In this document: one piece after another, positions 1,284 through 19,159 of the stretch | Layout: every line of letters begins with the position of its first letter | Position numbering within the stretch: position 1 is the first letter of the stretch | Virus record (IMG/VR): IMGVR_UViG_3300025112_002853 | Span: 1 to 22,470 of that record | From: a virus | Reading direction: 5' to 3' (one strand) | Length of the DNA: 22,470 nt | The notes under the pieces: model-generated | The model's input: only the letters and a program-made list of their open reading frames with translations | The model's database searches: none | What the model was told of the DNA's origin: nothing | Position numbers and translations under genes: made by a program

Positions 1284-1786
1284 TAGAATGTAATTGGCTT
1301 AGATTCTTTTCCAAAATTGGTGGTATAAAAAATGGTGATTCTCCTACATTGCGTATGTTGAAATCCGATGTTGTTTCTGTCGTATTAGATAAATGTTCCA
1401 ATATGAAGTATGTGAATGATAACGGAAATGATTTTGTTCTAGAGGATGGCACTAGGATAGAACTGAAGACAAAGAAAAGTGTGTTCCTGAAGAAAATACA
1501 AAAAACATCTAATATCACCATAATGAATACTAGAGGTGGGACAGAAAGAGGAAAGACTTTTGATTTTCTTTTACTTATTCAGACAGAAAAACCATACCGA
1601 GTTGCACACATTGATTGGGAATCCCTTCAAGAACACATAACATATATTGAAGATGCTTGTGTTGCAAAAAGTATACCTTATAATAAACTTTCATTTATTG
1701 ATACAGATTTCTTTGATTGGGAATTAGAGGTAAAACCTTGGGACTTACAAGAGTCTGTTATGGAAATGATAAGAAGTAAAGTATGA
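1280..1786 (+). CDS. Possible PD-(D/E)XK-fold nuclease
   Basis: A 168-residue protein I cannot assign to a named family. The middle carries D51-F-V-L followed ten residues later by E61-L-K63, inside a predicted beta-hairpin ('DFVLEDGTRIELKTKK'). This is the spacing of the D...ExK catalytic core in PD-(D/E)XK nucleases. A hydrophobic strand near residues 92-98 and a 'YRVAHIDWE' strand follow, fitting the central sheet of that fold. An N-terminal helix region (about 22-40) would precede the core. ATGA overlaps join it to the HNH-like gene upstream and gp46 downstream, so it is translated within the gp47-gp46 recombination module. It may be a DNA-processing accessory of that complex or a restriction-type enzyme. 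Assignment rests on pattern alone. Confidence 0.45.
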   Translation: MIECNWLRFFSKIGGIKNGDSPTLRMLKSDVVSVVLDKCSNMKYVNDNGNDFVLEDGTRIELKTKKSVFLKKIQKTSNITIMNTRGGTERGKTFDFLLLIQTEKPYRVAHIDWESLQEHITYIEDACVAKSIPYNKLSFIDTDFFDWELEVKPWDLQESVMEMIRSKV

Positions 1787-3495
1787 TAATGTTCACAAAA
1801 CTTAGTTGGCGCAATCTCCTCTCAACAGGAAATTACAAAACAACACTCGACCTCACCAAAGATACCAATACACTTATCTCTGGCGAGAACGGTGCAGGTA
1901 AGTCAACCATCCTTGATGCGTTGTGCTTTTCTCTATTCGGCAAATCGTTTCGTGGCATCAATATCCCACAACTACCCAATTCTATCAACGAAAAGGATTG
2001 TGAAGTAGAGATTGAATTTACTATTGGCAAAGATTCATATCGGGTGTTTCGTTCTTTGAACCCAAAAAAGTTTGAGATTTACAAGAACGGAAATTTGATT
2101 GATCAAGATTCCAAATCAAAAGATTATCAAAAGATTCTTGAGGAGCAAATTCTAAAAATGACATACAAATCATTTTGTCAAGTTGTCATCTTGGGGAGTA
2201 GCAATTATGTTCCCTTTATGAAACTCACTGCAAAAGACCGAAGACTTGTTGTTGAAAATCTATTAGACATTGATGTGTTTTCTGTGATGAATACTCTTGT
2301 TCGTGCGAGACTTCAAGTGGCAAAAGAGCATATCAAAGATATAGATCATAAGGTAGAACTTGTCAAGAGTAAAGTTGACGAAAAAGAGAAACTAATAAAA
2401 ACACTTTTGAAGAAATCTTCCGATTCGGTAGAAAGTTATAACAATGAAATAGAGAATTCCCGCAAGCAAATCAAAGAAATCCAAAAAGAAATAAAAATCA
2501 AACAAGAGAATATAGATCATCTTCTTGAGAAAGTCAAAGACAAGGATGAAGTACCGCGAAAATTGTTGAAGATGGAAGGTTTAGAACAACAACTCAAAAA
2601 CAAAATCAAAAATATTGATAAAAATGTAAAGTTCTATAAGGAGAACGATATTTGCCCGTCCTGCAAACAAGACATCGAAGAACACCACAAGGAATGTGTA
2701 TTCAAAGAAAAGTCAGATGAGAAGAAAGAAGTGGAAGACGGTATTGCTGAATTGGTAGATAATATGAATGATACAGGAAAGCGATTAGATGATATCAATT
2801 CCGTATTGCAAACGGTCGATTCCTTACAAACACAAATCAACGAGAAGCAAAATCAAATTGATTCGTCCCTTCGCTACATTGAGAAGATGCAAAAGAATAT
2901 CGAAGGTATAATGGAAGAAGGTGAAGAAGTCGAGGAGTCCAAAAAGGAACTTAGTGAGTTGATTGGTGAGGGTAAAGGATATGTTGGTGATCGTAAGAAA
3001 CAGGCAGAGGATAAGCATTATTATGAGATTGCGAGTGTTCTACTGAAGGATAGTGGCATCAAAGCGAAGATTATCAAACATTATCTTCCAATTATGAACA
3101 AACTTATCAATAAGTATCTTGCGGATATGGACTTCTTTTGCCAGTTTGACTTGGATGAAAATTTCAACGAAACAATCAAGAGTCGCCATCGTGATGAATT
3201 TACATATCATAGTTTCAGTGAAGGTGAACGATTACGGATTGACTTGTCTTTGCTATTGGCGTGGAGAGAGGTAGCCAGATTGAAGAACAGTGTGAATTGT
3301 AACTTGTTGATATTGGATGAAGTGTTTGATTCATCATTGGACTCAGTTGGAACAGAGGAGTTTCTGAAACTTCTAACAACTTTCGGAAATCGGGCAAATA
3401 TATTTGTAATCTCTCATAAATCTGATACAATGACAGATAAGTTTAGCAATCATATTGTGTTTGAGAAGAAGAATAATTTTAGTAGGATAAAATGA
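1783..3495 (+). CDS. 46: Recombination endonuclease subunit gp46 (SbcC/Rad50-like ATPase)
   Basis: The SMC/Rad50-type ATPase partner of gp47, needed for DNA end resection and recombination-dependent replication. At 570 residues it is close to the T4 protein (560). Order of elements: Walker A G34-E-N-G-A-G-K-S-T42; a Q-loop region ('SFCQVVILGSSNY'); two long charged coiled-coil arms (about 185-280 and 310-400); a zinc-hook C291-P-S-C294 at the tip for dimerisation; ABC signature S479-E-G-E-R483; Walker B with D512-E513; and a D-loop followed by the switch His in 'VISHKSDT'. The start at 1783 overlaps the previous stop as ATGA; a second ATG two codons later is possible. The TGA stop overlaps the start of the fucose synthase gene, so a sugar gene is translationally coupled to a recombination gene. 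Confidence 0.96.
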   Translation: MIMFTKLSWRNLLSTGNYKTTLDLTKDTNTLISGENGAGKSTILDALCFSLFGKSFRGINIPQLPNSINEKDCEVEIEFTIGKDSYRVFRSLNPKKFEIYKNGNLIDQDSKSKDYQKILEEQILKMTYKSFCQVVILGSSNYVPFMKLTAKDRRLVVENLLDIDVFSVMNTLVRARLQVAKEHIKDIDHKVELVKSKVDEKEKLIKTLLKKSSDSVESYNNEIENSRKQIKEIQKEIKIKQENIDHLLEKVKDKDEVPRKLLKMEGLEQQLKNKIKNIDKNVKFYKENDICPSCKQDIEEHHKECVFKEKSDEKKEVEDGIAELVDNMNDTGKRLDDINSVLQTVDSLQTQINEKQNQIDSSLRYIEKMQKNIEGIMEEGEEVEESKKELSELIGEGKGYVGDRKKQAEDKHYYEIASVLLKDSGIKAKIIKHYLPIMNKLINKYLADMDFFCQFDLDENFNETIKSRHRDEFTYHSFSEGERLRIDLSLLLAWREVARLKNSVNCNLLILDEVFDSSLDSVGTEEFLKLLTTFGNRANIFVISHKSDTMTDKFSNHIVFEKKNNFSRIK

Positions 3496-4397
3496 TGAAC
3501 ACATTGGTAACAGGTGGGAGTGGTTTAGTTGGTTCTGCTATATTAGCAGATTATAAACCCTCAAGCGAAGAATTGAATCTGTTGTATGTACAAGATATTG
3601 TTGACTATCTAAAAGCCAATTGTATTGATTCGATAGTACATTGTGCAGCAAGGGTTGGTGGCATCAAAGCCAACACTGATCATCTTGGAGAGTTTTATCA
3701 TAACAATATCATAATGAATACAAATCTTCTAGAAGCGGCGAGAGTTGCGGGGGTGAAGAAGGTTGTTTCTTTTATGTCAACTTGTGTATTTCCTGATGAT
3801 GCAAAGTATCCTCTCACACCAGACCAAATCCATAAAGGAGAGCCACATTCTTCAAATTATGCATACGCATATGCAAAAAGGATGCTAGAGGTTCAGAGTA
3901 GAGCATACAGAGATCAGTACGGTTGTAATTTTGTTACGGTGATTCCTTGTAACATATATGGACCAAACGATAACTTTGATTTAGAAAGTAGTCATGTTAT
4001 TCCTGCACTAATTCGTAAATGTTTTGAAGCAAAAGAAAACAATACAGATTTTGTTGTGTGGGGAACTGGCAGAGCATATAGAGAATTTATATATGTTGAT
4101 GATGTTGCTAAGATAACAGAATGGGTGTTACACAATTACGACGATTCAACACCATTTATTATTTCTCCTGATGAAGAAATTAGTATTGCAACTTTAGCAC
4201 AAGAAATTGCCTGGAGAATAGGGTTCGAAGGTAATATTGTTTATAACAATAAATATCCTGATGGTCAGTTGAAAAAACCATCGGATAATTATGTCTTGAA
4301 GAAAAACTTGCCAGATTTTGAGTTTACTCCTATTCATGGCGGATTGGATAAAACGATTGCTTGGTTTATGAAGAATTATGGAGTATGCAGATTATGA
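3492..4397 (+). CDS. fcl: GDP-L-fucose synthase (GDP-4-keto-6-deoxymannose epimerase/reductase)
   Basis: Extended short-chain dehydrogenase that epimerises C3 and C5 of GDP-4-keto-6-deoxy-D-mannose and reduces C4 with NADPH to give GDP-L-fucose. In the 301 residues: Rossmann motif T7-G-G-S-G-L-V-G14; the family string A-A-R-V-G-G-I-K-A-N (52-61); the 'MSTCVFP' segment with S96 and C98, equivalent to the catalytic Ser and Cys of the bacterial enzyme; Y125-x3-K129; and the substrate-domain segment 'WGTGRAYREFIYVDD'. The stretch after the Rossmann loop is a little shorter than in the E. coli enzyme. It is followed through an ATGA overlap by gmd, which makes its substrate. The two form a complete route from GDP-mannose to GDP-fucose, presumably feeding the fucosyltransferase-like gene near 14781. 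Confidence 0.92.
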   Translation: MMNTLVTGGSGLVGSAILADYKPSSEELNLLYVQDIVDYLKANCIDSIVHCAARVGGIKANTDHLGEFYHNNIIMNTNLLEAARVAGVKKVVSFMSTCVFPDDAKYPLTPDQIHKGEPHSSNYAYAYAKRMLEVQSRAYRDQYGCNFVTVIPCNIYGPNDNFDLESSHVIPALIRKCFEAKENNTDFVVWGTGRAYREFIYVDDVAKITEWVLHNYDDSTPFIISPDEEISIATLAQEIAWRIGFEGNIVYNNKYPDGQLKKPSDNYVLKKNLPDFEFTPIHGGLDKTIAWFMKNYGVCRL

Positions 4398-5407
4398 AAA
4401 AAGCATTGATTACAGGAATAAATGGACAAGATGGTTCATACCTTGCTGAATTTCTTTTAGATAGGGGGTATGAGGTTCACGGAATTTTGAAACGAAATTC
4501 TGTTGCAGAAAATCAAACAGCAAGATTAGATAATGTGTTTGATAAGTTGCATTTATATTATGGTGATTTGACGGATCTTTCTTCGTTGATTCATATATTA
4601 CAAAAGGTTGAACCAGATGAGGTTTATAATTTGGCAGCACAATCTCATGTAAGAATCAGTTTTGATGTTCCTTTATATACAGTACAAGCAGATGCAACTG
4701 GTGTGTTGAATGTTTTAGAGGCGTGTAGATTGGTTTGTCCAAAAGCAAAAATGTATCAAGCATCATCTTCAGAAATGTTTGGAAATTGTGTTGATGAGGA
4801 TGGTTTTCAAAGGGAAACCACTTCAATGCGTCCAGTAAGTCCGTATGGTTGTGCTAAGGTATTCGCATATAATATTAGCAGAAATTATAGACATTCTTAT
4901 GATATGTTTGTGAGTAACGGGATACTTTTCAACCACGAATCACCAAGAAGAGGTTCTAACTTTGTTACAAGTAAAATTGTGAAGGGTGCGATTTCAATAG
5001 CACTAGGAAAAGCCACAGAACTTCGTATGGGAAATCTTGATGCTCGAAGAGATTGGGGACATGCTAAAGATTATGTTGAAGCAATGTGGATGATTTTACA
5101 AGCAGATGAACCAGAAGACTATGTTTGCTCGACAGGAATTTCTCATAGTGTTCAGGATTGCTGTGAGTATATTTTCAAGAAATTAGGTATGGATTATAAG
5201 GATTATGTTGTGCTGGATGAAAAATATTTACGACCAGAGGAACTACACGATTTGAGGGGGGATTCAACAAAAATTCGAACAGAATTGGGGTGGAAACCCA
5301 ATTATACATTTGAGTCTATGTTGGATGATATGATTGAGGATGAGAAAAGAGAAAGTGGCTTTTACAAGACGCAGGATGAGTATGTACCATATGATCCTGT
5401 AAGATAA
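4394..5407 (+). CDS. gmd: GDP-mannose 4,6-dehydratase
   Basis: Converts GDP-D-mannose to GDP-4-keto-6-deoxy-D-mannose, the first step to GDP-L-fucose (or GDP-rhamnose/perosamine). I place the start at 4394, where the ATG overlaps the fcl stop as ATGA and the family motif begins at once (K-K-A-L-I-T-G-I-N-G-Q-D-G-S-Y); an upstream in-frame ATG at 4361 would only add 11 unrelated residues. The protein has 337 residues, slightly shorter than typical bacterial Gmd. Key residues: G8/G11/G14 of the NADP loop; N79-L-A-A-Q-S-H-V86; catalytic S-S-E at 125-127; Y151-x3-K155; and the 'LFNHESPRRG' substrate loop. All expected catalytic positions are present, so activity is likely. The stop lies 100 nt before the next confident start. 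Confidence 0.95.
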   Translation: MKKALITGINGQDGSYLAEFLLDRGYEVHGILKRNSVAENQTARLDNVFDKLHLYYGDLTDLSSLIHILQKVEPDEVYNLAAQSHVRISFDVPLYTVQADATGVLNVLEACRLVCPKAKMYQASSSEMFGNCVDEDGFQRETTSMRPVSPYGCAKVFAYNISRNYRHSYDMFVSNGILFNHESPRRGSNFVTSKIVKGAISIALGKATELRMGNLDARRDWGHAKDYVEAMWMILQADEPEDYVCSTGISHSVQDCCEYIFKKLGMDYKDYVVLDEKYLRPEELHDLRGDSTKIRTELGWKPNYTFESMLDDMIEDEKRESGFYKTQDEYVPYDPVR

Positions 5408-5463: not shown

Positions 5464-5507
5464 ACATAGATATACATTGAAGATGATATTGAAGAAAGAG
5501 AGTTGAT

Positions 5508-6947
5508 ATGACTGATAAAAAGAGTGATAAAGAAAACCATAACCTAGTTTATATCATGAATCCCAATTGCGGTTGGTGCAAGAAAGCAGATCCGGTTGTT
5601 GAGGAATTGAGAAAAGATGGCTATGAAATAACAATTTTGAATGTAACTGATAAGAAGGATGCGAAAGAAGCAAACGAAATTCAGTCAAAACATAGCATCC
5701 GATGCGGGACACCTTTGTTTGTAGATGCGGAAACTGGCAATATGGTTTGCGGTTTCAAAGAAAAGGATGTTCTAGAAAAGTGGGCTAAAGGAGAAAAGGT
5801 CATTGCTCCAAAACCAAAACCAAGACCCAATTCACAAGGATCTAATATTACAAAGAGACTTGCCAAATTGGATTATGTATGGTTAGATGGTTATGATACT
5901 AAAAATTTGAGAAGTAAAACTCGTTATATGACACTAGAATTTGGCAGTGAAGAAAATCCATTGCCGTTTGACAAGATAATTGAACAAGTACCAGAATGGT
6001 CATTTGATGGCTCTAGTACTGAACAAGCAGATGTTTCAGATAGCGATTTGGTTTTGAAGCCAGTCAGGTTTTTTGGTAATCCGTTTTCAAATAATCAAAG
6101 GGGTAATGTATCATATATTGTGCTGTGTGAAGTCTTCAATTCTGACGGAACACCACACAAAAGTAATACAAGAGCAAAACTTCGAGATATGGTAAACAAC
6201 CAAACAAATCCAAATGATTTTTGGTTTGGAGTTGAGCAAGAATATTCATTTATGGATCCAGCCACAAATAAGCCCGCAGACTGGAATATAGATTCCGAAC
6301 CACAAGGTAAGTACTATTGCGGTGTTGGTTCTAACTATATCACAAATGCACACAGGCAAGTTTCAGAAACCCATGCCCAATTTTGTATTCAGTCTGGTAT
6401 TAGTTTGAGTGGAACGAATGCAGAAGTAATGAAGTCTCAATGGGAATATCAAATTGGTCCGGTGTCGGCAATATCGTGTGCGGATCAACTTTGGGTTTCA
6501 AGATACATTCTTGAAAGATTAGCAGAAGTTCGGGACATGTATGTTAGTTTTGATCCTAAAGTTGTTGATAGCAGTGATTGGAACGGTGCTGGTTGCCATA
6601 TCAATTTCTCGACCAAAACTATGAGAGAAGATGGAGGAGAAGAATATATTTCTGATATTTGTGACTTTTTGGGAGAAAGACACGAAGATCATATGAGTGT
6701 TTATGGTGTTGGTAATGAGAAGAGACTAACAGGAAGCAACGAAACAGCAAACATTGAAGAATTTACTTGGAAAGTAATGGATCGTGGTGCTTCTGTTAGA
6801 GTTCCTGTTTCGACAATAAATAATGAATGGAAAGGTTACATCGAGGATCGAAGACCATCAGCAAATGTTGATCCTTATGAAGCATTTTTTGTAGTAACGG
6901 AAACGGTTTCTCTAATTGAGTCAGAAGAATTGGTGATGTCTGAATGA
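5508..6947 (+). CDS. Glutaredoxin/thioredoxin-like domain fused to type II glutamine synthetase
   Basis: A 479-residue fusion. Residues about 12-97 form a thioredoxin-fold domain with redox motif C21-G-W-C24 after an N-P-N turn and the usual Thr-Pro before a strand (T68-P69). A Pro/Lys-rich linker follows (about 98-112). Residues about 120-479 are a glutamine synthetase of the GSII (eukaryote-like, about 360-residue) class, which joins ammonia to glutamate with ATP. Family landmarks: 'WSFDGSST' (164-171), E243-Q-E245, 'YYCGVG', 'GTNAEVM' with E306 and E313, 'NGAGCHINF' with H364, R406-L-T-G, E412, 'ASVRVP' with R431, and E446-D-R-R-P. All metal, ATP and glutamate ligands I can place are present, so the enzyme looks active. 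It lies just after the GDP-fucose genes. The redox domain may regulate the synthetase. I know of no described protein with this architecture. Confidence 0.9.
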   Translation: MTDKKSDKENHNLVYIMNPNCGWCKKADPVVEELRKDGYEITILNVTDKKDAKEANEIQSKHSIRCGTPLFVDAETGNMVCGFKEKDVLEKWAKGEKVIAPKPKPRPNSQGSNITKRLAKLDYVWLDGYDTKNLRSKTRYMTLEFGSEENPLPFDKIIEQVPEWSFDGSSTEQADVSDSDLVLKPVRFFGNPFSNNQRGNVSYIVLCEVFNSDGTPHKSNTRAKLRDMVNNQTNPNDFWFGVEQEYSFMDPATNKPADWNIDSEPQGKYYCGVGSNYITNAHRQVSETHAQFCIQSGISLSGTNAEVMKSQWEYQIGPVSAISCADQLWVSRYILERLAEVRDMYVSFDPKVVDSSDWNGAGCHINFSTKTMREDGGEEYISDICDFLGERHEDHMSVYGVGNEKRLTGSNETANIEEFTWKVMDRGASVRVPVSTINNEWKGYIEDRRPSANVDPYEAFFVVTETVSLIESEELVMSE

Positions 6948-7243
6948 AATCTATGAGCAATTCATCATATGAGGAACATATAAACAACGAATTATCTCTT
7001 TTGTCTTCAAATTTTGTTGTGAAAACTTATAAGCGAGCAGATGCAGATGATTGGCCGATTTTTGAGAAGGGAAAAGATGTTCGTATTCAGATTCAATGGA
7101 ACAAGAAAAACATTTACGAGTTTATTGTTGAATCAGATTTTTGGAGACAAAGAAACACCAACAAAGAGGATCGTGAATATATGAGAATGATGGCTGAACC
7201 AAAAATCAAATCTTTGAAGAACGCTTTAGTAAAGAAGAAGTAA
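6944..7243 (+). CDS. Small charged hypothetical protein
   Basis: A 99-residue soluble protein that I do not recognise. It has no signal peptide, membrane segment or cysteine. The centre ('DVRIQIQW' and 'IYEFIVESDFW', about residues 46-67) looks like two beta strands joined by a basic turn, and the C-terminus is a Lys-rich helix. The ATG overlaps the stop of the glutamine synthetase fusion as ATGA, so the two are translationally coupled; a second ATG three codons on is also possible. The real-gene call rests on coupling, position and a coding-like composition rather than homology. Confidence 0.6.
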   Translation: MKSMSNSSYEEHINNELSLLSSNFVVKTYKRADADDWPIFEKGKDVRIQIQWNKKNIYEFIVESDFWRQRNTNKEDREYMRMMAEPKIKSLKNALVKKK

Positions 7244-7697: not shown

Positions 7698-7713
7698 AGG
7701 AGAAAAGGAACAG

Positions 7714-7896
7714 ATGTCGGGTAAAAAAAGAAATCAGTCATTTTCTGATAACGGAGAAGATGCTCGTTTGGTTAGGAGCAGGGGTAGGAAGAAGAAGACG
7801 AAAAAAAGATCTGAAAGACATTGGAGAAAACGATTGCTTGATGATGTAAAGGATGGTATCCTTGACAAGGATGATTATGGATATTTTGAACTGTGA
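7714..7896 (+). CDS. Small very basic protein
   Basis: A 60-residue protein starting at the ATG at 7714, supported by AAAGGAG (7696-7702) and a nearer AAAAGGA. A longer in-frame reading from 7675 would overlap the upstream gene and lacks a binding site. Residues 18-40 contain a dense Arg/Lys tract ('RGRKKKTKKR') and the tail is acidic ('DDVKDGILDKDDYGYFEL'). The basic tract suggests nucleic-acid binding. In T4 small genes, including the RNA-polymerase-binding protein gene rpbA, occupy the same place just before gene 45, but I see no clear similarity to RpbA. Family unknown. Confidence 0.5.
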   Translation: MSGKKRNQSFSDNGEDARLVRSRGRKKKTKKRSERHWRKRLLDDVKDGILDKDDYGYFEL

Positions 7897-7918
7897 TGTG
7901 TAAAATTGGAGATTATGA

Positions 7919-8623
7919 ATGATTACGGATATTGATATTATGAAACTATCAAAAGAAACATTTGCAATATTGAAGAATTTTTCAACCCTAAACTCAAATT
8001 TATTTGTGAAGGTTGGTAATAGAATTACAACAATTACTCCTGCCAAAAATGTAGTGGCAGAGGCAACTGTTATGGAAGATTTTCCGGTAGAGTTTGGCGT
8101 TTGGGATATGAACAAATTTCTAGGAACTGTGTCACTTTTCAACGATCCAGAATTTGTTTTCAATGACAAGTTTGTGGAGATAAATGAAAAGAATGGCGGA
8201 ACTGTTTCTTATTATTATTCTGAACCTAAATTGTTGACAACACTAACAAAGCAAATCAAAATGCCAGAGGTTGCATTTGATTTTGTTTTGACGGAAGACA
8301 CATTCAACGATTTACAAAAAACTGCGTCTGTCTTGCAGTTGTCGGATTTGTGTGTTCGCTCTAATGATTCTGAAGGGACTATTGAATTGTTGGTTTTGGA
8401 TAAGAAGTCCCCCACAACAAATCAGTATTTGGTGAATGTTGGGGATAATCCAAACGGAGATGATTCTTTCGAGTTCTACTATAAGATTGAGAATTTGAAG
8501 TTACTCCCCGGCGATTATACAGTTTCTCTTTGTAAATCTGCTGTTAGTAAGTTTGTTCATCACATACATGATTTGGTGTATTATGTTGCATTAGAAACGG
8601 ATTCAACTTATCAAGAAGGATAG
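7919..8623 (+). CDS. 45: Sliding clamp gp45 (DNA polymerase processivity factor)
   Basis: The trimeric ring clamp that tethers DNA polymerase and, in T4, also activates late transcription. At 234 residues it is near the T4 length (228). T4-like stretches include 'MKLSKETFAILKNFSTLNS' at residues 8-26, 'DMNKFLGTVSLFNDPEF', 'LLPGDYTVSLC' and the C-terminal 'YYVALETDSTYQEG' (T4 ends in a similar 'YVIALEADST'). T4 gp45 begins at the equivalent of the ATG at 7940, but the ATG at 7919 has GGAG at 7908-7911 with good spacing, so I keep the longer form with seven extra residues. It is followed directly by a sugar epimerase gene rather than by gene 44 as in T4. Confidence 0.94.
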   Translation: MITDIDIMKLSKETFAILKNFSTLNSNLFVKVGNRITTITPAKNVVAEATVMEDFPVEFGVWDMNKFLGTVSLFNDPEFVFNDKFVEINEKNGGTVSYYYSEPKLLTTLTKQIKMPEVAFDFVLTEDTFNDLQKTASVLQLSDLCVRSNDSEGTIELLVLDKKSPTTNQYLVNVGDNPNGDDSFEFYYKIENLKLLPGDYTVSLCKSAVSKFVHHIHDLVYYVALETDSTYQEG

Positions 8624-9601
8624 ATGTCTATGAAAAATATTCTCGTTTGCGGCGGCGGTGGATTTATAGGAAGTCATCTCGTTGAACACCTAAAAAGAGA
8701 AGGGCATTGGGTTTCTGTTTGTGACCTAAAGCGTCCTGAATTTTTTGAATCATCAGCAGATAGATTTGTTGTTGGCGATTTGAGGAGTCAGGATGTTTGT
8801 GATGATGTCTTTGATCGTCGTTTTGATGAAGTATATCAACTAGCCGCAGATATGGGTGGAGCAGGATATATTTTTTCGGGCGAAAATGATGCCGATGTAA
8901 TGCATAATTCTGCACTTATCAATCTCAATGTTGTTGAGAGATGTCAAAAGTCAAATGTTGGTAGAGTGTTTTATTCATCATCTGCTTGCATCTATCCAGA
9001 ATACAATCAACTAGAACCGGATACGCCAGATTGTTCTGAAGGTAGTGCATATCCTGCTGCACCAGACAGCGAATATGGTTGGGAAAAGTTATTTTCTGAA
9101 AGGTTGTATTTTTCTTACCACAGAAACTACGGACTGGATGTGAAGGTTGTTCGTTATCACAACATTTTTGGACCGCAAGGAACTTGGGATGGAGGGAAAG
9201 AAAAAGCCCCCGCTGCTCTTTGTAGAAAGATTGCAGAAACAGAAGATGGGGGATATATTGATGTTTGGGGGGACGGTTCTCAAACAAGATCTTTCTTGTT
9301 TATTGATGAGTGTTTGGAAGGTTCTTTGAAAATGATGGCATCGGATAAGCACGGACCCTATAATGTTGGTTCAGATGAAATGATTAGTATAAACAATTTT
9401 GCAAAAATGATTATAGATATTTCGGGAAAAGATATCAAAATCAACAACATACCCGGACCTTTAGGAGTCAGAGGAAGAAATTCTGAGAACACTCTTATTG
9501 AAAAGGAGTTGGGTTGGTCCCCATCTCGTCCTTTACGAGAAGGTATTGAAAAGACATATCACTGGATAAATGAGCAAGTGAAGCAAAAAATTGAAGTGTA
9601 A
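8624..9601 (+). CDS. gme: GDP-mannose 3,5-epimerase
   Basis: Extended short-chain dehydrogenase-family enzyme that converts GDP-D-mannose to GDP-L-galactose (with GDP-L-gulose as side product) through a transient 4-keto intermediate. The 325 residues read like the plant enzyme throughout: 'GGGGFIGSHL' (10-19), 'LAADMGGAGYI' (73-83), 'SSACIYPEY' with C122, Y151-G-W-E-K155, 'GGKEKAPAA' with K194, 'RSFLFIDEC' and 'GVRGRNSEN'. The spacing C122/Y151/K155/K194 equals that of Arabidopsis C145/Y174/K178/K217, so both catalytic acid-base residues are conserved. ATG 8624 abuts the gp45 stop; the ATG at 8630 has the better spacing to AAGGA (8616-8620). The gene lies between clamp and clamp loader, and it shares its substrate with Gmd. 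Confidence 0.92.
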   Translation: MSMKNILVCGGGGFIGSHLVEHLKREGHWVSVCDLKRPEFFESSADRFVVGDLRSQDVCDDVFDRRFDEVYQLAADMGGAGYIFSGENDADVMHNSALINLNVVERCQKSNVGRVFYSSSACIYPEYNQLEPDTPDCSEGSAYPAAPDSEYGWEKLFSERLYFSYHRNYGLDVKVVRYHNIFGPQGTWDGGKEKAPAALCRKIAETEDGGYIDVWGDGSQTRSFLFIDECLEGSLKMMASDKHGPYNVGSDEMISINNFAKMIIDISGKDIKINNIPGPLGVRGRNSENTLIEKELGWSPSRPLREGIEKTYHWINEQVKQKIEV

Positions 9602-9616
9602 AGGTTGGTGTATATT

Positions 9617-10567
9617 ATGAATGAAGTGTTGACGAAAAAATATTTATGGGTCGAAAAGTATAGACCACAGACAATTCAAGAATGTATCCTTCCAAAGGAT
9701 ATCAAAAAAACATTCAAAGATATGGTAGCATCAGGCGATGCACAGAATATCCTTTTGTCTGGTAAGGCTGGTTGTGGTAAAACTACAATTGCGAAAGCAA
9801 TATGTGAAGAACTTGGTTTAGATTGGATTTTGATCAACTGTTCTGAATCAGGAACAATTGATACATTACGAACAACCATCAAAGATTTTGCGAGTACTAT
9901 TTCTTTGTCTGGTTCTGGTAAGGTAGTAATTCTTGACGAATTTGACTACAGCAACGCACAAAGTATTCAACCGGCTCTTAGAGGAGCAATTGAAGAGTTT
10001 GCTGATAATTGTCAGTTTATTATCACATGTAACTATAAGAATAGAATTATCAAACCGATTCATTCTCGTTGTACAAATATAGAATTTAGTATTCCCAACA
10101 ACGAGAAACCTCAATTGGCATCAGAGTTTCTCTCTAGAATAAAATACATTTTAGATGAAGAAAATATTCCATACGATGAGAAGGTATTGGTGGAATTGAT
10201 TACAAAACATTTCCCAGATTTTAGAAGAACAATAAATGAGTTACAAAGGTATTCTGTTTCAGGAAGTATTGATGTTGGAATACTGACTCAACTTGGCGAA
10301 ATAGAAATCAAAGATTTGATGAAGTCTATGAAAGATAAAGACTTTGCAAATGTTCGAAAATGGGTTGTTCGGAATTTAGATAATGACCAGACCCACATTT
10401 TTCGAAAATTGTATGATCACATACACGAATATATAACTCCGCAGACTGTTCCTGCTGTTATTCTTATCTTAGGAGAATATCAATACAAGTCTGCGTTTGT
10501 TGCAGATTTGGAAATAAATGCGACTGCATGTTTGATTGAAATTATGTTGGAGGCTGAATTCAAATGA
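9617..10567 (+). CDS. 44: Clamp loader large subunit gp44 (AAA+ ATPase)
   Basis: The ATPase subunit that, with gp62, opens and loads the gp45 ring. It has 316 residues from the ATG at 9617; the frame extends upstream to a TTG at 9605, but similarity starts after 9617 and the TTG has no usable ribosome binding site. Motifs: 'VEKYRPQTIQECILP' (12-26, nearly as in T4), Walker A G49-K-A-G-C-G-K-T-T57, Walker B D107-E108-F-D110, and S150-R151-C152 carrying the arginine finger. 'FPDFRRTINELQRYS' also matches the T4 family closely. The stop overlaps the GroES-like start as ATGA. Confidence 0.95.
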   Translation: MNEVLTKKYLWVEKYRPQTIQECILPKDIKKTFKDMVASGDAQNILLSGKAGCGKTTIAKAICEELGLDWILINCSESGTIDTLRTTIKDFASTISLSGSGKVVILDEFDYSNAQSIQPALRGAIEEFADNCQFIITCNYKNRIIKPIHSRCTNIEFSIPNNEKPQLASEFLSRIKYILDEENIPYDEKVLVELITKHFPDFRRTINELQRYSVSGSIDVGILTQLGEIEIKDLMKSMKDKDFANVRKWVVRNLDNDQTHIFRKLYDHIHEYITPQTVPAVILILGEYQYKSAFVADLEINATACLIEIMLEAEFK

Positions 10568-10869
10568 ATAATATTGAAGCACAAGGCGATTATATTATCG
10601 TCGAGAAAGTAGATTATGACTCGGAAAAAACTACAGAGTCGGGAATTATTTACAAAGAAAGCCAAGTTCTTTCTAGTAGTTTTGTTGAAGCAAAAATAAT
10701 ATCAATGGGAACCGGACTCCCCATTTCGAATGGCGATATTCCAGAAATTGGTTTTGAAGAAGGTGATATAGTTTTCTATGATGCTAGAAGTAGAATAGGA
10801 ACACATGAAAAATTTGATGTGATCAGACGAGAACATGTTGTTGCGGTGATTAGAAATGAAACTGAGTGA
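10564..10869 (+). CDS. GroES-like co-chaperonin (gp31 analogue)
   Basis: A 101-residue protein with the layout of the Cpn10/GroES family: an N-terminal 'GDYIIVEKV' strand, a mobile-loop region 'TTESGIIYKESQ' (about 23-34) whose I-I-Y could play the part of the hydrophobic tripeptide that docks on GroEL, 'VEAKIISMGTG' (family: E-V-x-A-V-G-x-G), 'EEGDIVFYDARS' (family: V-G-D-x-V) and a closing 'FDVIRREHVVAVI' (family: E-x-D-I-L-A-I). T4 gp31 replaces GroES so that GroEL can fold the large capsid protein; a similar role is inferred. It is coupled to gp44 (ATGA) and overlaps gp62 by 14 nt, an unusual place for such a gene. The roof-loop region differs from bacterial GroES, as expected for a phage form. 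Confidence 0.78.
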   Translation: MNNIEAQGDYIIVEKVDYDSEKTTESGIIYKESQVLSSSFVEAKIISMGTGLPISNGDIPEIGFEEGDIVFYDARSRIGTHEKFDVIRREHVVAVIRNETE

Positions 10870-11734: not shown

Positions 11735-12430
11735 ATGAGCAAGTTACTGATCAAATTTCCTACAAGAAACAGACCAGACAAATTCAAACACATTTTAGAC
11801 AAAACGATAAATCATTTATCGGGTAATCATAATGTTCGATTCGTTATCACTATGGATACTGATGATGAGACAATGAATAATGAAGATATAAAGCAATATC
11901 TAGAAGACAAAAAGTCTTCTGGTATAAACTTGATATATCATTATGGCAATTCTAAAACCAAAGTAGAAGCCTGCAATGCAAACTTAGAAGAGGAAAAGGC
12001 TGATATCATTCTTCTTTTATCTGATGATATGATTCCGTGTTTCGAAGGATTCGATGAACTTGTTGTTGAAGGAATGAAAGAGAATTTTCCTGAGATGGAC
12101 GGAGCAGTAAAATTCTATGATGGCTTACGACCACCAAACGATCTACTGATGACCCTTCCAGTAATAGGATGGAAGTTATATGAAGCAATGGGGTATCTAT
12201 ACAATCCCTCATATACATCTGTTTTCTGCGATAACGAAATGACTCTTGTTTGTATGATGCTAAACAAGATAGCCATATCGCCAGTTTGTTTGTTTAGGCA
12301 TGAATGGACACCGCAGCCATTTGATGAATTACATGCAAGAAATGAAAACAAAGAAATGTATGAGAAAGATGGCGCAATATTTGATGAACGAAAATCAAGG
12401 AACTTTGAAGTTGAAACTATATCATTATAA
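11735..12430 (+). CDS. Glycosyltransferase, GT-A fold (GT2-like)
   Basis: A 231-residue protein and the first gene of the glycan cluster. It opens with the typical GT-A strand-and-turn 'IKFPTRNRP' (6-14), has a second strand 'VRFVITMDTDD' (34-44), and a metal/nucleotide-sugar site at 'LLLSDDMIP' with D97-D98. A later acidic patch 'FCDNEMT' could supply the catalytic base, and 'LFRHEW' resembles the metal-binding His near the end of GT-A enzymes. There is no membrane segment, so it probably acts in the cytoplasm. Donor and acceptor cannot be read from the sequence. It starts 16 nt after regA, and its stop overlaps the next ATG by one base. Confidence 0.7.
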   Translation: MSKLLIKFPTRNRPDKFKHILDKTINHLSGNHNVRFVITMDTDDETMNNEDIKQYLEDKKSSGINLIYHYGNSKTKVEACNANLEEEKADIILLLSDDMIPCFEGFDELVVEGMKENFPEMDGAVKFYDGLRPPNDLLMTLPVIGWKLYEAMGYLYNPSYTSVFCDNEMTLVCMMLNKIAISPVCLFRHEWTPQPFDELHARNENKEMYEKDGAIFDERKSRNFEVETISL

Positions 12431-13311
12431 TGAATCTCCTTTCGTACTGTTTATTTGAACCAAGAGTAATGCACTCTCATCGTACTTGGGATCCAAAAAG
12501 AATGGATTCTCAAAGATATTGGTATAATATACCAAGTTTGATAATTGCCAATTCCATTCTGTACCCAAAGTATACAACCAAATTCTATATCAGTCATAGT
12601 GTTCAGTATCATCCACTATTTCCTGTTCTCAGAGATTCTGGGATTGAAATAGAAGTTGTTGATATGGGATTTGAAAGTACATCGGAACCTATGTTGTGGA
12701 GAATGTTACCGTGTTGGGATTCAAAAGTGGAATGTTTCTTTACACGGGATGTTGATTCTATTCCAAACAGAAATGAGTTTCTAGCCACAAAATTCTTTGA
12801 GAAGAATGATAGGTATCACATTCAAACAATCAGATCTCATGTAAACCATTATCACGAACAGGGGTGTGATATGTTAGGTGGTTTATCTGGCTTTAGACCA
12901 AAGATGATACCCAATTTTCCAAAAACATTCGAGGAATATTATCAAAACAGAAACAACATGCCTTGGGCACAAGATCAATATTTGATGGTACAAACATTTA
13001 TACATTCACAAGAAAACACCTATCTTAGACAACATTTCTTAGATTGCCCTATAGACAATCAATCACAACAAGCAGTTTTTCCTTGTGAAAGAATACGAAG
13101 AGATCAATTAGAATCTGTTGTTATAAATGAACAACAAGAAGAAGTATTTTCTCTTGTAGAAGAAAAAGAGTTATCTGGTTGGGCAGGAGAACCTTCTGAT
13201 GCACGGGGAGAATTTACTAAAAGAATGCTTGAGTTTGATAATGATGCTGCTAAACAAATAAAAAGAATATTTGATGATAATTCAACAATAGCAGAAATGT
13301 ATGGGCAATGA
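12430..13311 (+). CDS. Putative glycosyltransferase with DxD motif
   Basis: A 293-residue protein. The region around residues 90-112 ('WRMLPCWDSKVECFFTRDVDSIP') ends in D107-V-D109, a DxD placed after a hydrophobic strand as in GT-A enzymes, with a preceding W-R helix typical of transferases that hold a nucleotide sugar. A conserved-looking 'HEQGCDMLGGLSGFRP' segment follows, and 'WAQDQYLM' could close the active site. The first 60 residues ('YCLFEPR', 'RYWYNIPSLI') contain many aromatic residues. The C-terminus is acidic and helical. Family placement within the GT classes is uncertain; fold and function are inferred from the motif and the surrounding genes. Overlaps: TAATG upstream and ATGA downstream. 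Confidence 0.6.
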   Translation: MNLLSYCLFEPRVMHSHRTWDPKRMDSQRYWYNIPSLIIANSILYPKYTTKFYISHSVQYHPLFPVLRDSGIEIEVVDMGFESTSEPMLWRMLPCWDSKVECFFTRDVDSIPNRNEFLATKFFEKNDRYHIQTIRSHVNHYHEQGCDMLGGLSGFRPKMIPNFPKTFEEYYQNRNNMPWAQDQYLMVQTFIHSQENTYLRQHFLDCPIDNQSQQAVFPCERIRRDQLESVVINEQQEEVFSLVEEKELSGWAGEPSDARGEFTKRMLEFDNDAAKQIKRIFDDNSTIAEMYGQ

Positions 13312-14093
13312 AGATATATCGTAACAGTTTATGTCATAAGGGCGATACATTTAGGGAACTCTTGTCAATGTGGGAAGAGTCTGGTTATTGTACTACTGAA
13401 GAAAGTGATGATCGTTTTTGTTGGGCTAATGGAGTTGGTGATACTTTGTTATATGAATATGCAAGATTTGATTTCTTGCCAGAAAGGTGGAATTATGCAC
13501 TTTTTTCGAATATGCAAAAGGATTGTAAAAATTGTTCTCCTTGGATATTTTGGGCTAGACATCCTAAACAGTTAGAAAAGGAGATTAGTAACGGTATAAT
13601 TTCATATGACAACCGAAAATTTACTTCTATATTTTTAGGTAAAATTGAGAATAATATTCAACACCAAAATCGAACCAGACACGACTGGTCTTCTTGTATT
13701 GAAGAATTTAGTATGCCAGTTTTGATGGGGAATGTGAATCATTACCCCTATTCACAAAACGAATATCTACTTCGCGTAAAACATTCTCATTTTGGGTTAG
13801 TTCTTCCGGGTTATGGTCCAAAATGTAACAGAGAAATAGAATATTTGGGACTAGGAACAGTACCGATATACACAGATGGGTGTAGTCTCGACTTCTATAA
13901 CAAGATGAGTGAAGGCGATCATTACCTGAAAGCCAGTTCTCCAGAAGATGTACGAGATATTGTGAACAATATAAGCGAAAATGAGTGGAAATATCTATCA
14001 GATAACGGTAGAGGGTGGTATGATGCCAACTGTTCAAGAAAAGGGTCTTTCAAGACCACACAGACAATCCTAGAAGGTCTGGCGGATGGGTGA
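13308..14093 (+). CDS. Putative exostosin-like (GT-B type) glycosyltransferase
   Basis: A 261-residue protein. The C-terminal half resembles the nucleotide-sugar-binding domain of exostosin/GT47-type or related GT-B transferases: 'RVKHSHFGLVLPGYGPKC' followed by 'NREIEYLGLGTVPIY' (about 156-188), where the Gly-rich turn and the R-E-x-E-x-L-x-x-G-x-x-P-I pattern are typical, then a helix before 'HYLKASSPEDVRDIV'. A strand 'SIFLGKIEN' with following 'RTRHDW' marks the domain start. The N-terminal part has several Cys residues ('KDCKNCSPW') whose purpose is unknown. It is coupled to both neighbours (ATGA upstream, 8-nt overlap downstream). The substrate is unknown. Confidence 0.58.
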   Translation: MKIYRNSLCHKGDTFRELLSMWEESGYCTTEESDDRFCWANGVGDTLLYEYARFDFLPERWNYALFSNMQKDCKNCSPWIFWARHPKQLEKEISNGIISYDNRKFTSIFLGKIENNIQHQNRTRHDWSSCIEEFSMPVLMGNVNHYPYSQNEYLLRVKHSHFGLVLPGYGPKCNREIEYLGLGTVPIYTDGCSLDFYNKMSEGDHYLKASSPEDVRDIVNNISENEWKYLSDNGRGWYDANCSRKGSFKTTQTILEGLADG

Positions 14094-14784
14094 AGTAACC
14101 GTAGTACTAACTGTCTGGAAAAGAAACAACTTGGAAAAGCAGTTGGAGGCTATCAAAAACCAAACAGCCAGTATTGACGAAATTTATGTGTATCAGAATG
14201 AATCTCATCTAGACATTTCATATCTTCAGAAGAAATATTCATTCAAACATATTCATTCTAAAGATAAGAATTTCAAATTTCATGGAAGGTTCACCCTTCC
14301 TCTACTATTCAATACCAAATATACAGCCATTTTTGATGATGATACTATTCCAGCAAGGAATTGGCTAAACCACTGTAAAGAATTGTGCGATGAAAGAAAT
14401 TGTATTGTGGGAGCCAATTGCCGAAATAAGAATGGCTTTGGTAGTGGTCTTTGTGACGGTATAGTAAATTCTGAACCGATCAAATGTGATATTGTTGGGC
14501 ATTGTTGGTTTTTCAAAACAGAATGGATACATTATATGTGGAGAGAATCTGCTCCTACTTTTGAGAATGGAGAAGACATTCATTTCTGTGCATCTTGCCA
14601 AATATACGGTGATATAGATTCATATCTTCCTACACAAGAAGAGAGCGTTCCTGAAAATTGGGGCGACACAAATCCGAATCTTGGTGGAGATGAGTTTGCA
14701 ACTTGGAGAAAGATTGATCATAACGATATTCGTCATTCTTTATATAAATATTGGGAAAATAAAGGATGGAGAACTAACAAATGA
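14086..14784 (+). CDS. Glycosyltransferase, GT-A fold (GT2/GT64-like)
   Basis: A 232-residue protein. The N-terminus 'VTVVLTVWKRNNLEKQLEAI' with following 'NQT' and 'IYVYQNES' is the classic opening of GT2-like and exostosin GT64 domains, in which a strand, a helix and 'Q-T' precede the nucleotide pocket. D84-D-D86-T-I-P in 'AIFDDDTIP' is the metal-binding triad. 'CDIVGHCWFFKTEW' and 'ENGEDIHFCASCQIYG' match the acceptor-side strand and the E-D catalytic-base motif of this fold. All active-site elements are visible, so an active transferase is likely. GAAGG upstream of ATG 14086 serves as binding site. The stop overlaps the next gene as ATGA. Confidence 0.72.
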   Translation: MGEVTVVLTVWKRNNLEKQLEAIKNQTASIDEIYVYQNESHLDISYLQKKYSFKHIHSKDKNFKFHGRFTLPLLFNTKYTAIFDDDTIPARNWLNHCKELCDERNCIVGANCRNKNGFGSGLCDGIVNSEPIKCDIVGHCWFFKTEWIHYMWRESAPTFENGEDIHFCASCQIYGDIDSYLPTQEESVPENWGDTNPNLGGDEFATWRKIDHNDIRHSLYKYWENKGWRTNK

Positions 14785-15503
14785 TATCCATCAGTCATGT
14801 TCCGCCAGATTGGGGATTTGGTAATAGGTTGCTGTTCTATAACAACCTCAGGCAGTTAGCAGAAAAGTCTGGAGAGGTATGGCATTCTGTTTTCTGGGAT
14901 GGGTGTGATTATTTTACAGGAAATATGCTCAGTTCTAATATTGTTGTTGAGGATAAACATTTTTATATTCTTGATCCTTGCTTAGGTGAACATTTTTTTG
15001 ATTGGAATGTTGTTTCAACACGATCTATATTTGAATTGAAAGAAAAACCAAAGGTTGAAGAGGGATCGGTTGCTATCCATTTTAGAGGAACTGACTTTTT
15101 TAGTTGGAATTTTGATGCTGTTCTGGATAAAAATTACTACATGGATGCCATTGATGCTATCGAAGACGCGAAAACCTATTATATTTTTACTGACGATACT
15201 ACTTTACCAGCATATAATTCTGTGTTGTCACGCCTAGATGCGGACAAATCTAAGAATGTTATTGTTGGTGAAAATACACCAAATAGAAATAACTACATCA
15301 AAGATTTTTCACTAATGACTGAATGTGAATATATCATTTCGAGTCCATCTACATATTGTATATGTGCCGGGTTTATAGGCAAAACAAAGAAGATAATCCA
15401 TTCCGAAAAATGGTTAGATAATAGAAGAAAAGTGAATGACAAATTTTGGGTTGGGTTGTATAATGGTGGTAATGATGATTACATGATTTGGAGAGCCATA
15501 TGA
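14781..15503 (+). CDS. Fucosyltransferase-like glycosyltransferase (GT11/GT23-type fold)
   Basis: A 240-residue protein with the signatures of GDP-fucose-dependent GT-B transferases. The N-terminus has 'GFGNRLLFYNNLRQLAE' (12-28), like the G-L-G-N-Q opening of alpha-1,2-fucosyltransferases. H100-F-R102-G-T-D105 corresponds to the H-x-R-x-G/T-D motif whose Arg contacts GDP-fucose. A later stretch 'FSLMTECEYIISSPSTYCICAGF' (176-198) matches the 'D-x-x-L-M-x-x-C...S-x-S-S-F-x-W-W' region that holds the donor. The protein is shorter than typical GT11 enzymes (about 290), so a divergent branch or another acceptor is likely. The phage carries a complete GDP-fucose route (fcl, gmd), which supports the donor guess. 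Start and stop both overlap neighbours as ATGA. Confidence 0.65.
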   Translation: MISISHVPPDWGFGNRLLFYNNLRQLAEKSGEVWHSVFWDGCDYFTGNMLSSNIVVEDKHFYILDPCLGEHFFDWNVVSTRSIFELKEKPKVEEGSVAIHFRGTDFFSWNFDAVLDKNYYMDAIDAIEDAKTYYIFTDDTTLPAYNSVLSRLDADKSKNVIVGENTPNRNNYIKDFSLMTECEYIISSPSTYCICAGFIGKTKKIIHSEKWLDNRRKVNDKFWVGLYNGGNDDYMIWRAI

Positions 15504-16297
15504 TATATTTGAAGACATACTTTTATGTTCCCCACGAAATAAAATTTTTGATAATGAATCTCATAGAGGCATATGACCATATTGATAAGTTCATCATCTG
15601 CGAATTTGATAGAACCCATACAGGACAACCTAGAGAATTTATATTCCAAGATCATATTCATGAATTTCCTGCTGAGTTACGAGATAAAATTTTGTATATG
15701 CCTTGTAAGATTGGTGATTATGCAGTAGAAGCATACGAAGACGAAGATGCAATACACAACATCAACGAACCCGTCATGAGGGGATTTTTCAGTAGGATGA
15801 AATCATTCGATGATAACGACATTATCATTTCTATTGATGCAGATGAAATCATATACAGAGAGTCGTATGATTATATTGTAAACGAAGTAAACCTAAATAA
15901 TGTAGTCAGACTAAATCTGTATCAGTTCTTCTATAAAACAACATATCTTTGGGAAGGAAAGGATTTTGTTTCACCAATAGCAACGAAGTATAGTGTTTTT
16001 AGAAACCATTTTCCTTGCAATTGGAGGGATGTGGGAAAGGTTGTTTCTAAAAAGGTTGGATGCCATTTTTCTTGGTGTATGACTCCAGAAGAAATGGTAT
16101 ATAAACTGCACACATATAGTCATCCTAGATATCGTTTTTGTGCTGACAAGGAAATTTTGGAAAAGGCTATAGAGGAAAAGGAATATCCTTTTGACGAAAA
16201 TGTAGATTTTTCTATAAGGGAGTTGGAAATAGATGATAAGGTGTTACCAGAATGTATAAGAACTCAGTCGCCATACTTGGCAAAGGTCCAAGTGTAA
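15500..16297 (+). CDS. GT17-like (N-acetylglucosaminyltransferase family) glycosyltransferase
   Basis: A 265-residue protein from the ATG at 15500, which overlaps the previous stop as ATGA; a TTG at 15488 in the same frame is not needed. The layout is that of the GT17 (MGAT3-like) family: an opening 'IYLKTYFYVPHEI' and 'KFIICEFDRTHTGQPRE' (helix then strand), 'IIISIDADEI' with D113-A-D115-E116 as metal site, and 'GCHFSWC' with H189 near the 'W-R-D-V-G-K' turn. Members of this family transfer GlcNAc to a mannose; that specificity is not proved here. The end overlaps the next gene by 46 nt, the longest overlap in the cluster. Confidence 0.68.
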   Translation: MIYLKTYFYVPHEIKFLIMNLIEAYDHIDKFIICEFDRTHTGQPREFIFQDHIHEFPAELRDKILYMPCKIGDYAVEAYEDEDAIHNINEPVMRGFFSRMKSFDDNDIIISIDADEIIYRESYDYIVNEVNLNNVVRLNLYQFFYKTTYLWEGKDFVSPIATKYSVFRNHFPCNWRDVGKVVSKKVGCHFSWCMTPEEMVYKLHTYSHPRYRFCADKEILEKAIEEKEYPFDENVDFSIRELEIDDKVLPECIRTQSPYLAKVQV

Positions 16298-16845
16298 AAC
16301 GATGTACCAAGGATTTCATAGACGGGTTTACGGTTGTTGTTGCTTGTGGAAGACCCGTATTCGAAGGATATGAATCTGTTGTTGGTAATAGGGCGCACTA
16401 TGATTATGCAAATAGAACATCAACATCATACACACCAAAGCAAGTATCTAGACTGGGTATTAGAGAGATTGTGGATACAGGAAGCAACACAGAGATAAGA
16501 AAGAATTTCAAATATAAAGATTTAGACCCATCTACTGGCATATTAGCGTTTCATGATTTTGTAACAAGATCGGAATATACAACGATTGCACTTATTGGGT
16601 TTGATTTGTTTCAGACCAACAAGAAGATGTATTACTACAAGAACAATGAATTTGATAAAGCAGTTGATTGGCTATGGGAAGATGGTACATACGATGACGA
16701 AGGAAGGTTGACGATTGAAAGTGGACACAACACAAAACTAACACACGATTATTTGGTAGACATGTTTTCTTTATATCCTGAGAAAAAATTCTACATGTTT
16801 ACATCATATCCTTTTGAAAAGAGAAACAATCTTGTTTTGAAATAA
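16252..16845 (+). CDS. Sialyltransferase-like protein (GT42/GT29-type nucleotide-binding fold)
   Basis: A 197-residue protein opening with 'VAILGKGPSVKRC' (6-18). This G-x-G-P-S loop after a first strand is the CMP-binding signature in bacterial sialyltransferases (Cst-II type) and related GT29/DUF115-like proteins. Later 'GILAFHDFVTRSEYTTIALIGFDLF' (about 96-120) follows the second family pattern: a Ser/Thr-Gly loop, a helix, then 'I-x-L-x-G-x-D'. The H-x-x-K pair 'SGHNTKLTHDYL' near the end could supply a catalytic His. It is shorter than Cst-II (about 290). A CMP-sugar synthetase-like gene lies 2.3 kb downstream, which fits use of a CMP-sugar donor. Donor identity is inference. Its start is buried in the previous gene; its stop overlaps the next ATG by one base. 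Confidence 0.55.
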   Translation: MYKNSVAILGKGPSVKRCTKDFIDGFTVVVACGRPVFEGYESVVGNRAHYDYANRTSTSYTPKQVSRLGIREIVDTGSNTEIRKNFKYKDLDPSTGILAFHDFVTRSEYTTIALIGFDLFQTNKKMYYYKNNEFDKAVDWLWEDGTYDDEGRLTIESGHNTKLTHDYLVDMFSLYPEKKFYMFTSYPFEKRNNLVLK

Positions 16846-17645
16846 TGAATATATGGGCTAACACTAAAACTTTAGACGATTACATTACTACTTCTAATGA
16901 TAAAGAAAAGGCTGAAATTCTTTTGCTTGGAAGCAAGACTGTTTGCTTAGAAGAATTTCCGAACGCAAAAGGAATTTTCAGGGTAGGAATTGGTAGGGAT
17001 AATGTGCCATTTGATGAAGCCAAAGATAGAAATATATTGATTCGATTTCCGTCTGAAGAAACAATAGATGTGATATATGAAGAGACTGCTAATTTTACTT
17101 GTTATCTTATTTTCAAGATGTTCTATGCTTCGGTTGGATATGTTGATGGTTGGGTAAAAAATTCTAGGAATCTTTTTTCAGATAATAGACTTTTGATTAT
17201 TGGGGGAGGAAACATCGGACAACGGGTGGCAAAAAAGATGGACGATTTTCTCGAAGTCGATGTGTTTGATATTGATAGTAATAACATCGAAGATTTGCGA
17301 GGTATGATAGAAGAATCTGATTGCATTTCTCTTCATATACCATATAATTCGGACAATAAGAATTTCTTTGATGAAGAAAAGATAGGATGGATGAAGGATA
17401 AAGCCATTCTCATAAATACTTCTAGAGGTTCAATAGTTTCAGAAGATGCCTTGTATGATAGTATAAAGAATGGTAAAGTTTTAGCAGCGTTTGATGTGTT
17501 TTGGAAAGAGCCATATGAAGGAAAATTGAAAGAGTTTTATCCTGACGGCTTCTTTATGACTCCTCATATTGCAAGTACTAACAAGAAGTTTTTAGAGAAT
17601 GCAGCGAAAGATTTGATGGTGTTTGTGGAAGGTTTTGATGATTAG
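16845..17645 (+). CDS. D-isomer-specific 2-hydroxyacid dehydrogenase
   Basis: A 266-residue NAD-dependent dehydrogenase of the phosphoglycerate/lactate dehydrogenase family, somewhat shorter than the usual 310-330. The nucleotide loop is G120-G-G-N-I-G125. The three catalytic positions are present: R194 in 'NTSRG', E222 in 'DVFWKEP' and H241 in 'TPHIAS'. 'GIFRVGIGRDNV' (43-54) is the substrate-domain loop. Members interconvert 2-hydroxy and 2-keto acids. Within this cluster it may act on a sugar acid or a C3/C4 precursor of an acidic sugar, but the substrate cannot be told from sequence. The stop overlaps the next start by 8 nt. Confidence 0.85.
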   Translation: MNIWANTKTLDDYITTSNDKEKAEILLLGSKTVCLEEFPNAKGIFRVGIGRDNVPFDEAKDRNILIRFPSEETIDVIYEETANFTCYLIFKMFYASVGYVDGWVKNSRNLFSDNRLLIIGGGNIGQRVAKKMDDFLEVDVFDIDSNNIEDLRGMIEESDCISLHIPYNSDNKNFFDEEKIGWMKDKAILINTSRGSIVSEDALYDSIKNGKVLAAFDVFWKEPYEGKLKEFYPDGFFMTPHIASTNKKFLENAAKDLMVFVEGFDD

Positions 17646-18612: not shown

Positions 18613-19159
18613 AATTTATCAAAATCTGATAATGAATGATGATTTGAATTCTTTGATTATTCAGATGCGAAATATGGTTATAGAAACTAGAGAAAGAGGC
18701 GGCAAAATGATATTTGCTGGTAATGGTGCTAGTAATACAATTGCAACACATGCTTCTCTTGACTTTATGAACCAGTTAGGAATTCCTTGTTTGCCGCTAA
18801 ACGATTCTAGCGTTATAACAGCATTTTCAAACGACTTTGGTTATGATTCTTGTGTTGAGAGGTTTACTAAATTACATGCTAATGAAAATGATATGCTGGT
18901 GTTGATAAGTTCTTCTGGAATGTCAGAGAATATTGTACGGGCAGCCAAATATGCTAATGGTGTTGGTTGTGGTATTGTAACATTTACAGGATTTTCTTCT
19001 AACAATTATCTGAAAACTTTAGGTGATGTAAATTTTTGGGTTGACAGCAACGAATACAACATAGTAGAAAACATTCATATGATGTGGTTGATTAGTGTGT
19101 GTGATTTGATTGCGTTCGAAGAAAAAGAAATAATAGGAACACACGGAAGAAACTTATGA
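18581..19159 (+). CDS. SIS-domain sugar-phosphate isomerase (GmhA-like)
   Basis: A 192-residue single SIS domain, like sedoheptulose-7-phosphate isomerase GmhA and the isomerase part of arabinose-5-phosphate isomerases. 'FAGNGASNTIATH' (45-57) is the phosphate-binding loop (family G-N-G-G-S), and 'LISSSGMSENIVRAAKYA' is the second SIS motif. GmhA binds zinc through a His and a Glu four residues apart; here the places hold H57 and D61. The GmhA C-terminal Gln...His pair is not clearly present: the region reads 'VENIHMMWLISVCDL', with Ile where the second His is expected. It may therefore belong to a different subgroup with another substrate. The start is at 18581 or 18584; the stop overlaps the next gene as ATGA. 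Confidence 0.78.
   Translation: MMKTWLNKRFEIYQNLIMNDDLNSLIIQMRNMVIETRERGGKMIFAGNGASNTIATHASLDFMNQLGIPCLPLNDSSVITAFSNDFGYDSCVERFTKLHANENDMLVLISSSGMSENIVRAAKYANGVGCGIVTFTGFSSNNYLKTLGDVNFWVDSNEYNIVENIHMMWLISVCDLIAFEEKEIIGTHGRNL

Follow-up and report, generated by a model that had tools for sequence, protein, structure and literature searches.

A type II glutamine synthetase joined to a thioredoxin-like head in a family of uncultured T4-like phages

Introduction

Nitrogen assimilation and thiol reduction are functions that phages are known to carry separately; the locus described here joins a glutamine synthetase (GS) to a thioredoxin-like domain in one phage protein. The locus lies in a 22,470-nucleotide stretch of viral DNA (IMG/VR record IMGVR_UViG_3300025112_002853, positions 1 to 22,470), the whole of which is called the window below. 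GS is already known as a virus-borne auxiliary metabolic gene (PMC10721903, PMC9083009); in the accessible parts of these reports the genes belong to viruses of aquatic microbes and have a suggested role in ammonia assimilation, like the GS of the window phage, whereas neither a fusion nor an assignment to type II GS (GSII) is reported. We found no description of a phage GSII or of this fusion in open-access papers, a body of literature that misses most subscription papers, in agreement with an earlier note on this DNA that knew of no phage protein of this build.

Results

A single intact frame encodes the fusion

The window encodes, at 5508-6947 on the + strand, a single intact ORF of 479 amino acids, whose parts are as follows.

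5494..5502, +: purine-rich stretch GAAAGAGAG, read from the sequence
5508..6947, +: Trx-head/GSII fusion ORF, 479 aa (intact frame, Pfam and PDB matches; recurs in at least 26 other contigs)
5541..5798, +: thioredoxin-fold head, residues ~12-97 (~11-98) (AF2 model, Z ~10 to thioredoxins, invariant positions in 29 sequences)
5568..5579, +: CGWC motif, C21/C24 (invariant in 29 heads; CxxC form in 66/66)
5703..5714, +: CGTP motif, C66 adjoining the cis-Pro position P69 (invariant)
5748..5756, +: CGF motif, fourth invariant cysteine C81 (invariant)
5799..5852, +: Pro/Lys-rich flexible linker, residues ~98-115 (pLDDT <50 at residues 102-110; synonymous-divergence step in related pairs)
5853..6932, +: type II glutamine synthetase domain, residues ~116-475 (structural Z, active-site identity)

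The stretch GAAAGAGAG at 5494..5502 (+) is a probable ribosome-binding site. No riboswitch or other RNA element was matched in Rfam. In the Pfam search, both GS domains scored above cut-off, Gln-synt_C with 53 bits and Gln-synt_N with 38 bits. Structure prediction of the whole protein, proposed in the earlier note, gave both folds with a mean pLDDT of 88, but linker residues 102-110 stayed below 50; the linker, whose length varies among relatives, is thus modelled as disordered and predicted to be flexible.

The GS half belongs to the GSII class

In a phmmer search against the PDB, GSII chains matched fusion residues 112-471 at E 1e-80 to 1e-89, while GSI chains matched at ~1e-10 or weaker. 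The GS part of the model gave Z 44.5 to Streptomyces coelicolor GSII (4bax), 37-44 to eukaryotic GSII and 30-33 to GSI. All 13 compared positions, D167, E243, E245, E306, E313, G360, H364, R406, E412, R426, R431, E446 and R448, are identical to maize GSII (D56, E129, E131, E192, E199, G245, H249, R291, E297, R311, R316, E330 and R332, respectively) and invariant in 35 viral GSII, which bears out the earlier reading of a full GSII with every metal, ATP and glutamate position that could be placed; we take these to be the metal, ATP, glutamate and ammonia-site residues. The fused GS scored 343 bits against the NCBIfam GlnII equivalog, whose cut-off is 500 bits, indicating a diverged GS. By fold and residues, the GS half is therefore a member of the GSII class that lies outside the curated GlnII equivalog. 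It shares its fold (Z 37-44.5) and every compared active-site residue with solved GSII (4bax, 2d3a, 2ojw) and differs from them by an added thioredoxin head of ~110 residues, by an identity of 41-46% and by its score under the GlnII cut-off.

Purifying selection is strong on both halves: pairwise omega, calculated by a simple Nei-Gojobori method for sufficiently diverged pairs, was about 0.07-0.19 for the GS half and 0.05-0.15 for the head. We consider it very probable that the GS half is catalytically active as a glutamine synthetase.

The earlier description of GSII as mostly eukaryotic and found in some bacteria understates its spread, since a profile scan found relatives encoded in more than 590 stretches of bacterial and archaeal genomes; a single-sequence scan of bacterial genomes gave no matches. 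None of the 80 closest cellular GSII from the profile scan of bacterial genomes has an N-terminal extension of more than 40 residues. Among phages in INPHARED, close GSII were found only in four huge-phage records, all headless; those of LR756501, LR745206 and LR756502 are 42-45% identical to the GSII domain of the window, with the match spanning fusion residues 116-476 only.

The head is a four-cysteine thioredoxin-fold domain

The modelled head has a thioredoxin fold (Z up to 10.5 over 80 residues, rmsd 2.1), and Pfam Thioredoxin (PF00085) matched residues 8-92 just below threshold (20.2 vs 23.5 bits). CGWC and CGTP are invariant in 29 heads, and the head has four invariant cysteines, C21/C24 and a second pair, C66/C81. 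The earlier note had named a C-G-W-C glutaredoxin/thioredoxin-like domain; the motif and the thioredoxin fold hold, but the domain is nearer to thioredoxin than to glutaredoxin, and the second cysteine pair had been missed. The fold, the CxxC and the TP at the cis-Pro position are common to the head and to thioredoxin (PF00085; Bacillus subtilis TrxA, 9bxs_E). Unlike thioredoxin, the head has CGWC in place of CGPC, a shorter N-terminus, the additional invariant C66 and C81, a score under the Pfam cut-off and, in all 66 ORFs examined, a Pro-rich linker beginning W..GE..P.P directly behind it. We accordingly describe it as a thioredoxin-fold domain and do not assign it as a canonical thioredoxin, whose motif is WCGPC. 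It is probably an active thiol oxidoreductase. Some heads (L084, L103, L109-L112 and L114) start with MACKCGKN..CKC, an N-terminal cysteine cluster that is possibly metal-binding; the window protein has no such cluster.

The fusion recurs, and the head is optional for GS

A search with the head alignment found the same fusion in at least 26 other IMG/VR contigs, some of them near copies; a search with the whole protein found it in six other IMG/VR contigs, together with unfused GSII in dozens. Both searches, which the earlier note had proposed, thus revealed a recurrent fusion accompanied by unfused GS and by other carriers of the head. The recurrence rules out an assembly artefact or a chance join, and so disposes of the concern that the linker might hide an assembly junction; nor are the two domains always separate genes, since many genomes have them joined and others have them apart.

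In the GS tree, all 21 fused rows fell within one viral GSII clade of 26 (support 100/99). Five unfused GS are nested inside this clade, including L003 and L006, the nearest relatives of the window; these closest GSII relatives, 64-66% identical, lack the head. In L006, GS starts at an ATG just past a purine-rich AGGAG, and the gap after gp46 holds no head. No free-standing head was found in the contigs of the close unfused relatives. This nesting, together with the headless L006, implies that the head was lost or gained more than once, and the head is optional for GS, being dispensable in sister phages. In the head tree, which is too weak and short to count swaps or to resolve the history of the carriers, one origin of the GS-fused heads was not rejected (p-AU 0.116). 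L031 carries, besides its GSII, a second, distant GS-like ORF of 426 aa 2.5 kb on (5992-6999 and 9509-10789).

The phages are T4-like, and GS occupies a variable slot

The neighbours of the fusion include the following genes.

1783..3495, +: gp46-like recombination nuclease subunit, conserved left flank (tblastn to T4-like cyanophages, 46%, Synechococcus phage ACG-2014b)
6944..7243, +: small conserved gene sm4 directly after the slot (synteny in 22 loci)
7919..8623, +: gp45 sliding clamp, conserved right flank (Pfam gp45-slide_C, 46 bits)

Homologues of gp46, gp45, gp44 and gp62 stand in T4-like order, confirming the T4-like phage of the earlier note; gp45-slide_C and Phage_clamp_A were matched in Pfam, and gp44 was assigned from synteny and sequence and not by a family search. 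The carriers of the fusion are a family of uncultured T4-like phages, probably marine. Among 56 loci scored between the methyltransferase and RNase H genes, one of them with only 108 bases of downstream sequence, 16 hold a fused GS, six an unfused GS, and in 34 no GS was found; the GS gene occupies a variable slot beside replication-recombination genes.

In the window itself, neither the methyltransferase before GS nor the RNase H (5'-3' exonuclease) gene before gp45 (7698-7918) was called; both are present there in relatives. A Cpn10-like co-chaperonin gene (10564-10869) lies between clamp-loader genes. A large sugar island (3492-5407, 8624-9601 and 11735-20591) contains GDP-mannose dehydratase, epimerase/fucose-synthase-like genes, GT11- and GT17-like glycosyltransferases, GFO/IDH and 2-hydroxyacid dehydrogenases, SIS and CMP-sugar synthetase-like genes.

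The same head rides on other tails

The head was also found on non-GS tails, either as a short tail protein (~164-213 aa) or on longer proteins (~230-356 aa) with Pro-rich, coiled-coil-like tails; these length classes are crude, and the truncated ORFs L363 and L364 were counted as the short type. Heads on GS and on non-GS tails share the linker start 'GE.IP.PP.P'. Two Trx-head proteins (L351, 1054-1749; L343, 1928-2671) have repeated PRPKS.PP.PP units and a C-terminal, coiled-coil-like LD.L..HLGVK end.

Three long contigs differ in the placement of the head. L108 (157 kb), whose gp46 is 74% identical to that of the window, has the head on a short tail and no GS, and its methyltransferase gene leads directly into sm4. 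In L098 (123 kb), GS carries the head, and the tail gene at the syntenic position is headless. L216 (126 kb) has an unfused GS and no detected head. Within one lineage (gp46 73-74% identical), GS thus bears the head in one genome, and a short tail protein bears it in another that lacks GS. No contig examined had two heads, and a type iii tail was not found in fusion genomes; because few contigs are long enough for both loci, most of the support for a limit of one head per contig comes from three genomes. L097 and L099 each hold one headed and one headless tail gene, so a headed gene may have been lost instead of the head having literally moved.

GS halves appear to have been exchanged at the linker

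In three pairs (L103/L112, L103/L110 and L111/L112), the synonymous difference was 0.23-0.35 in the upstream methyltransferase and the head and 0.65-0.70 in the GS half. For L103/L112 the values were 0.33-0.35 in methyltransferase and head vs 0.68 in GS (z 6.9), and L111/L112 showed a step at the linker with z 7.9. Identity along the alignment also drops near the linker (plots leave out L111/L112). The approximate doubling of synonymous divergence at the linker implies that the GS half was replaced behind a fixed head in those lineages, and GS halves have, on these differences, apparently been exchanged in several pairs. The pairs L090/L091 and L091/L098 gave no clear step at the linker, L090/L091 showing none.

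Discussion

The explanation that we favor, and consider fairly probable as a whole, is a working GSII tethered to an autonomous four-cysteine phage thioredoxin that swaps carriers. During infection the GSII, presumably a decamer, would use ATP to form glutamine from glutamate and ammonia, and the phage would gain a glutamine supply for building nucleotides and proteins from an enzyme that differs in class from GSI. The earlier note had envisaged glutamine for amidotransferases; the supply side is consistent with a complete and probably active GSII, but a search of 22 records, many of which are fragments, found no class II amidotransferase or asparagine synthetase partner. The proline-rich, flexible tether would hold the autonomous thioredoxin on GSII, and the head would be the genome's single copy of a module that recombination, within the linker or close to it, provides with different C-terminal partners: GSII here, and in relatives tails that are either short and helical or long and coiled-coil/Pro-rich. 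Its targets may be ribonucleotide reductase (RNR), host proteins or the phage protein itself; RNR matches occurred in four of the 22 records, three of them head-bearing phages without GS and none a fusion contig. Because the head also sits on unrelated carriers, its job is likely its own. More tentatively, and at slightly less than an even chance, the single four-cysteine head of each genome is an important infection factor passed between unrelated carriers by recombination at Pro-rich linkers, with GS as one carrier.

The earlier note had proposed the thiol domain as a redox switch, in which the head would sense the redox state of the cell and turn the attached GS on or off, or keep its cysteines reduced. 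The physical linkage is kept throughout a diverse clade, the GS has conserved cysteines (C207, C271 and C293), and overexpression of thioredoxin m in tobacco raised the activity and stability of GS (PMC8219043), an effect on plant GS that keeps this proposal alive; effects of thioredoxin have been reported for algal GS as well. However, the three cysteines are common to all unfused viral GSII examined and none is private to fused GS, close sister GS do without the head, the same head occurs on non-GS tails, and the linker is variable in length and modelled as disordered. We consider such a switch unlikely: as a separate module found also on quite different partners, the head is probably not a dedicated switch for GS. 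Nevertheless, the persistence of the fused state across the clade may reflect a benefit of being fused.

A scaffolding role, in which the GSII multimer would display many heads in place of coiled-coil tails while also making glutamine, fits the coiled-coil-like ends of other carriers and the known GSII structures, which are decamers according to PDB entry titles. Such a role is very unlikely in our judgment, given the fully kept catalytic residues under purifying selection and the many phages whose GSII has no head. The least likely proposal, a GS-fold ligase acting on another acceptor or acid, such as the sugar acid of the earlier note, and tied to neighboring sugar-nucleotide genes, could appeal to the window's wealth of sugar-nucleotide and glycosyltransferase genes and to the missed GlnII cut-off, but every compared metal-, glutamate- and ammonia-site residue equals that of maize GSII, and the gene lies in a replication-gene slot that in many relatives has no adjoining sugar gene.

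Returning to the tethered, carrier-swapping thioredoxin, neither this head nor four other headed proteins had a match in INPHARED (50,697 phage records) at E 0.01, so cultured phages offer no model yet. The fusion brings nitrogen assimilation and thiol reduction together in one recurrent protein and displays an apparent exchange of domains behind a fixed redox head. It raises the questions of whether phages obtain glutamine by a GSII route apart from the host GS, and of what the shared head reduces. If the tentative reading of a single head passed among carriers is true, T4-like phages would possess a carrier-swapping redox module.
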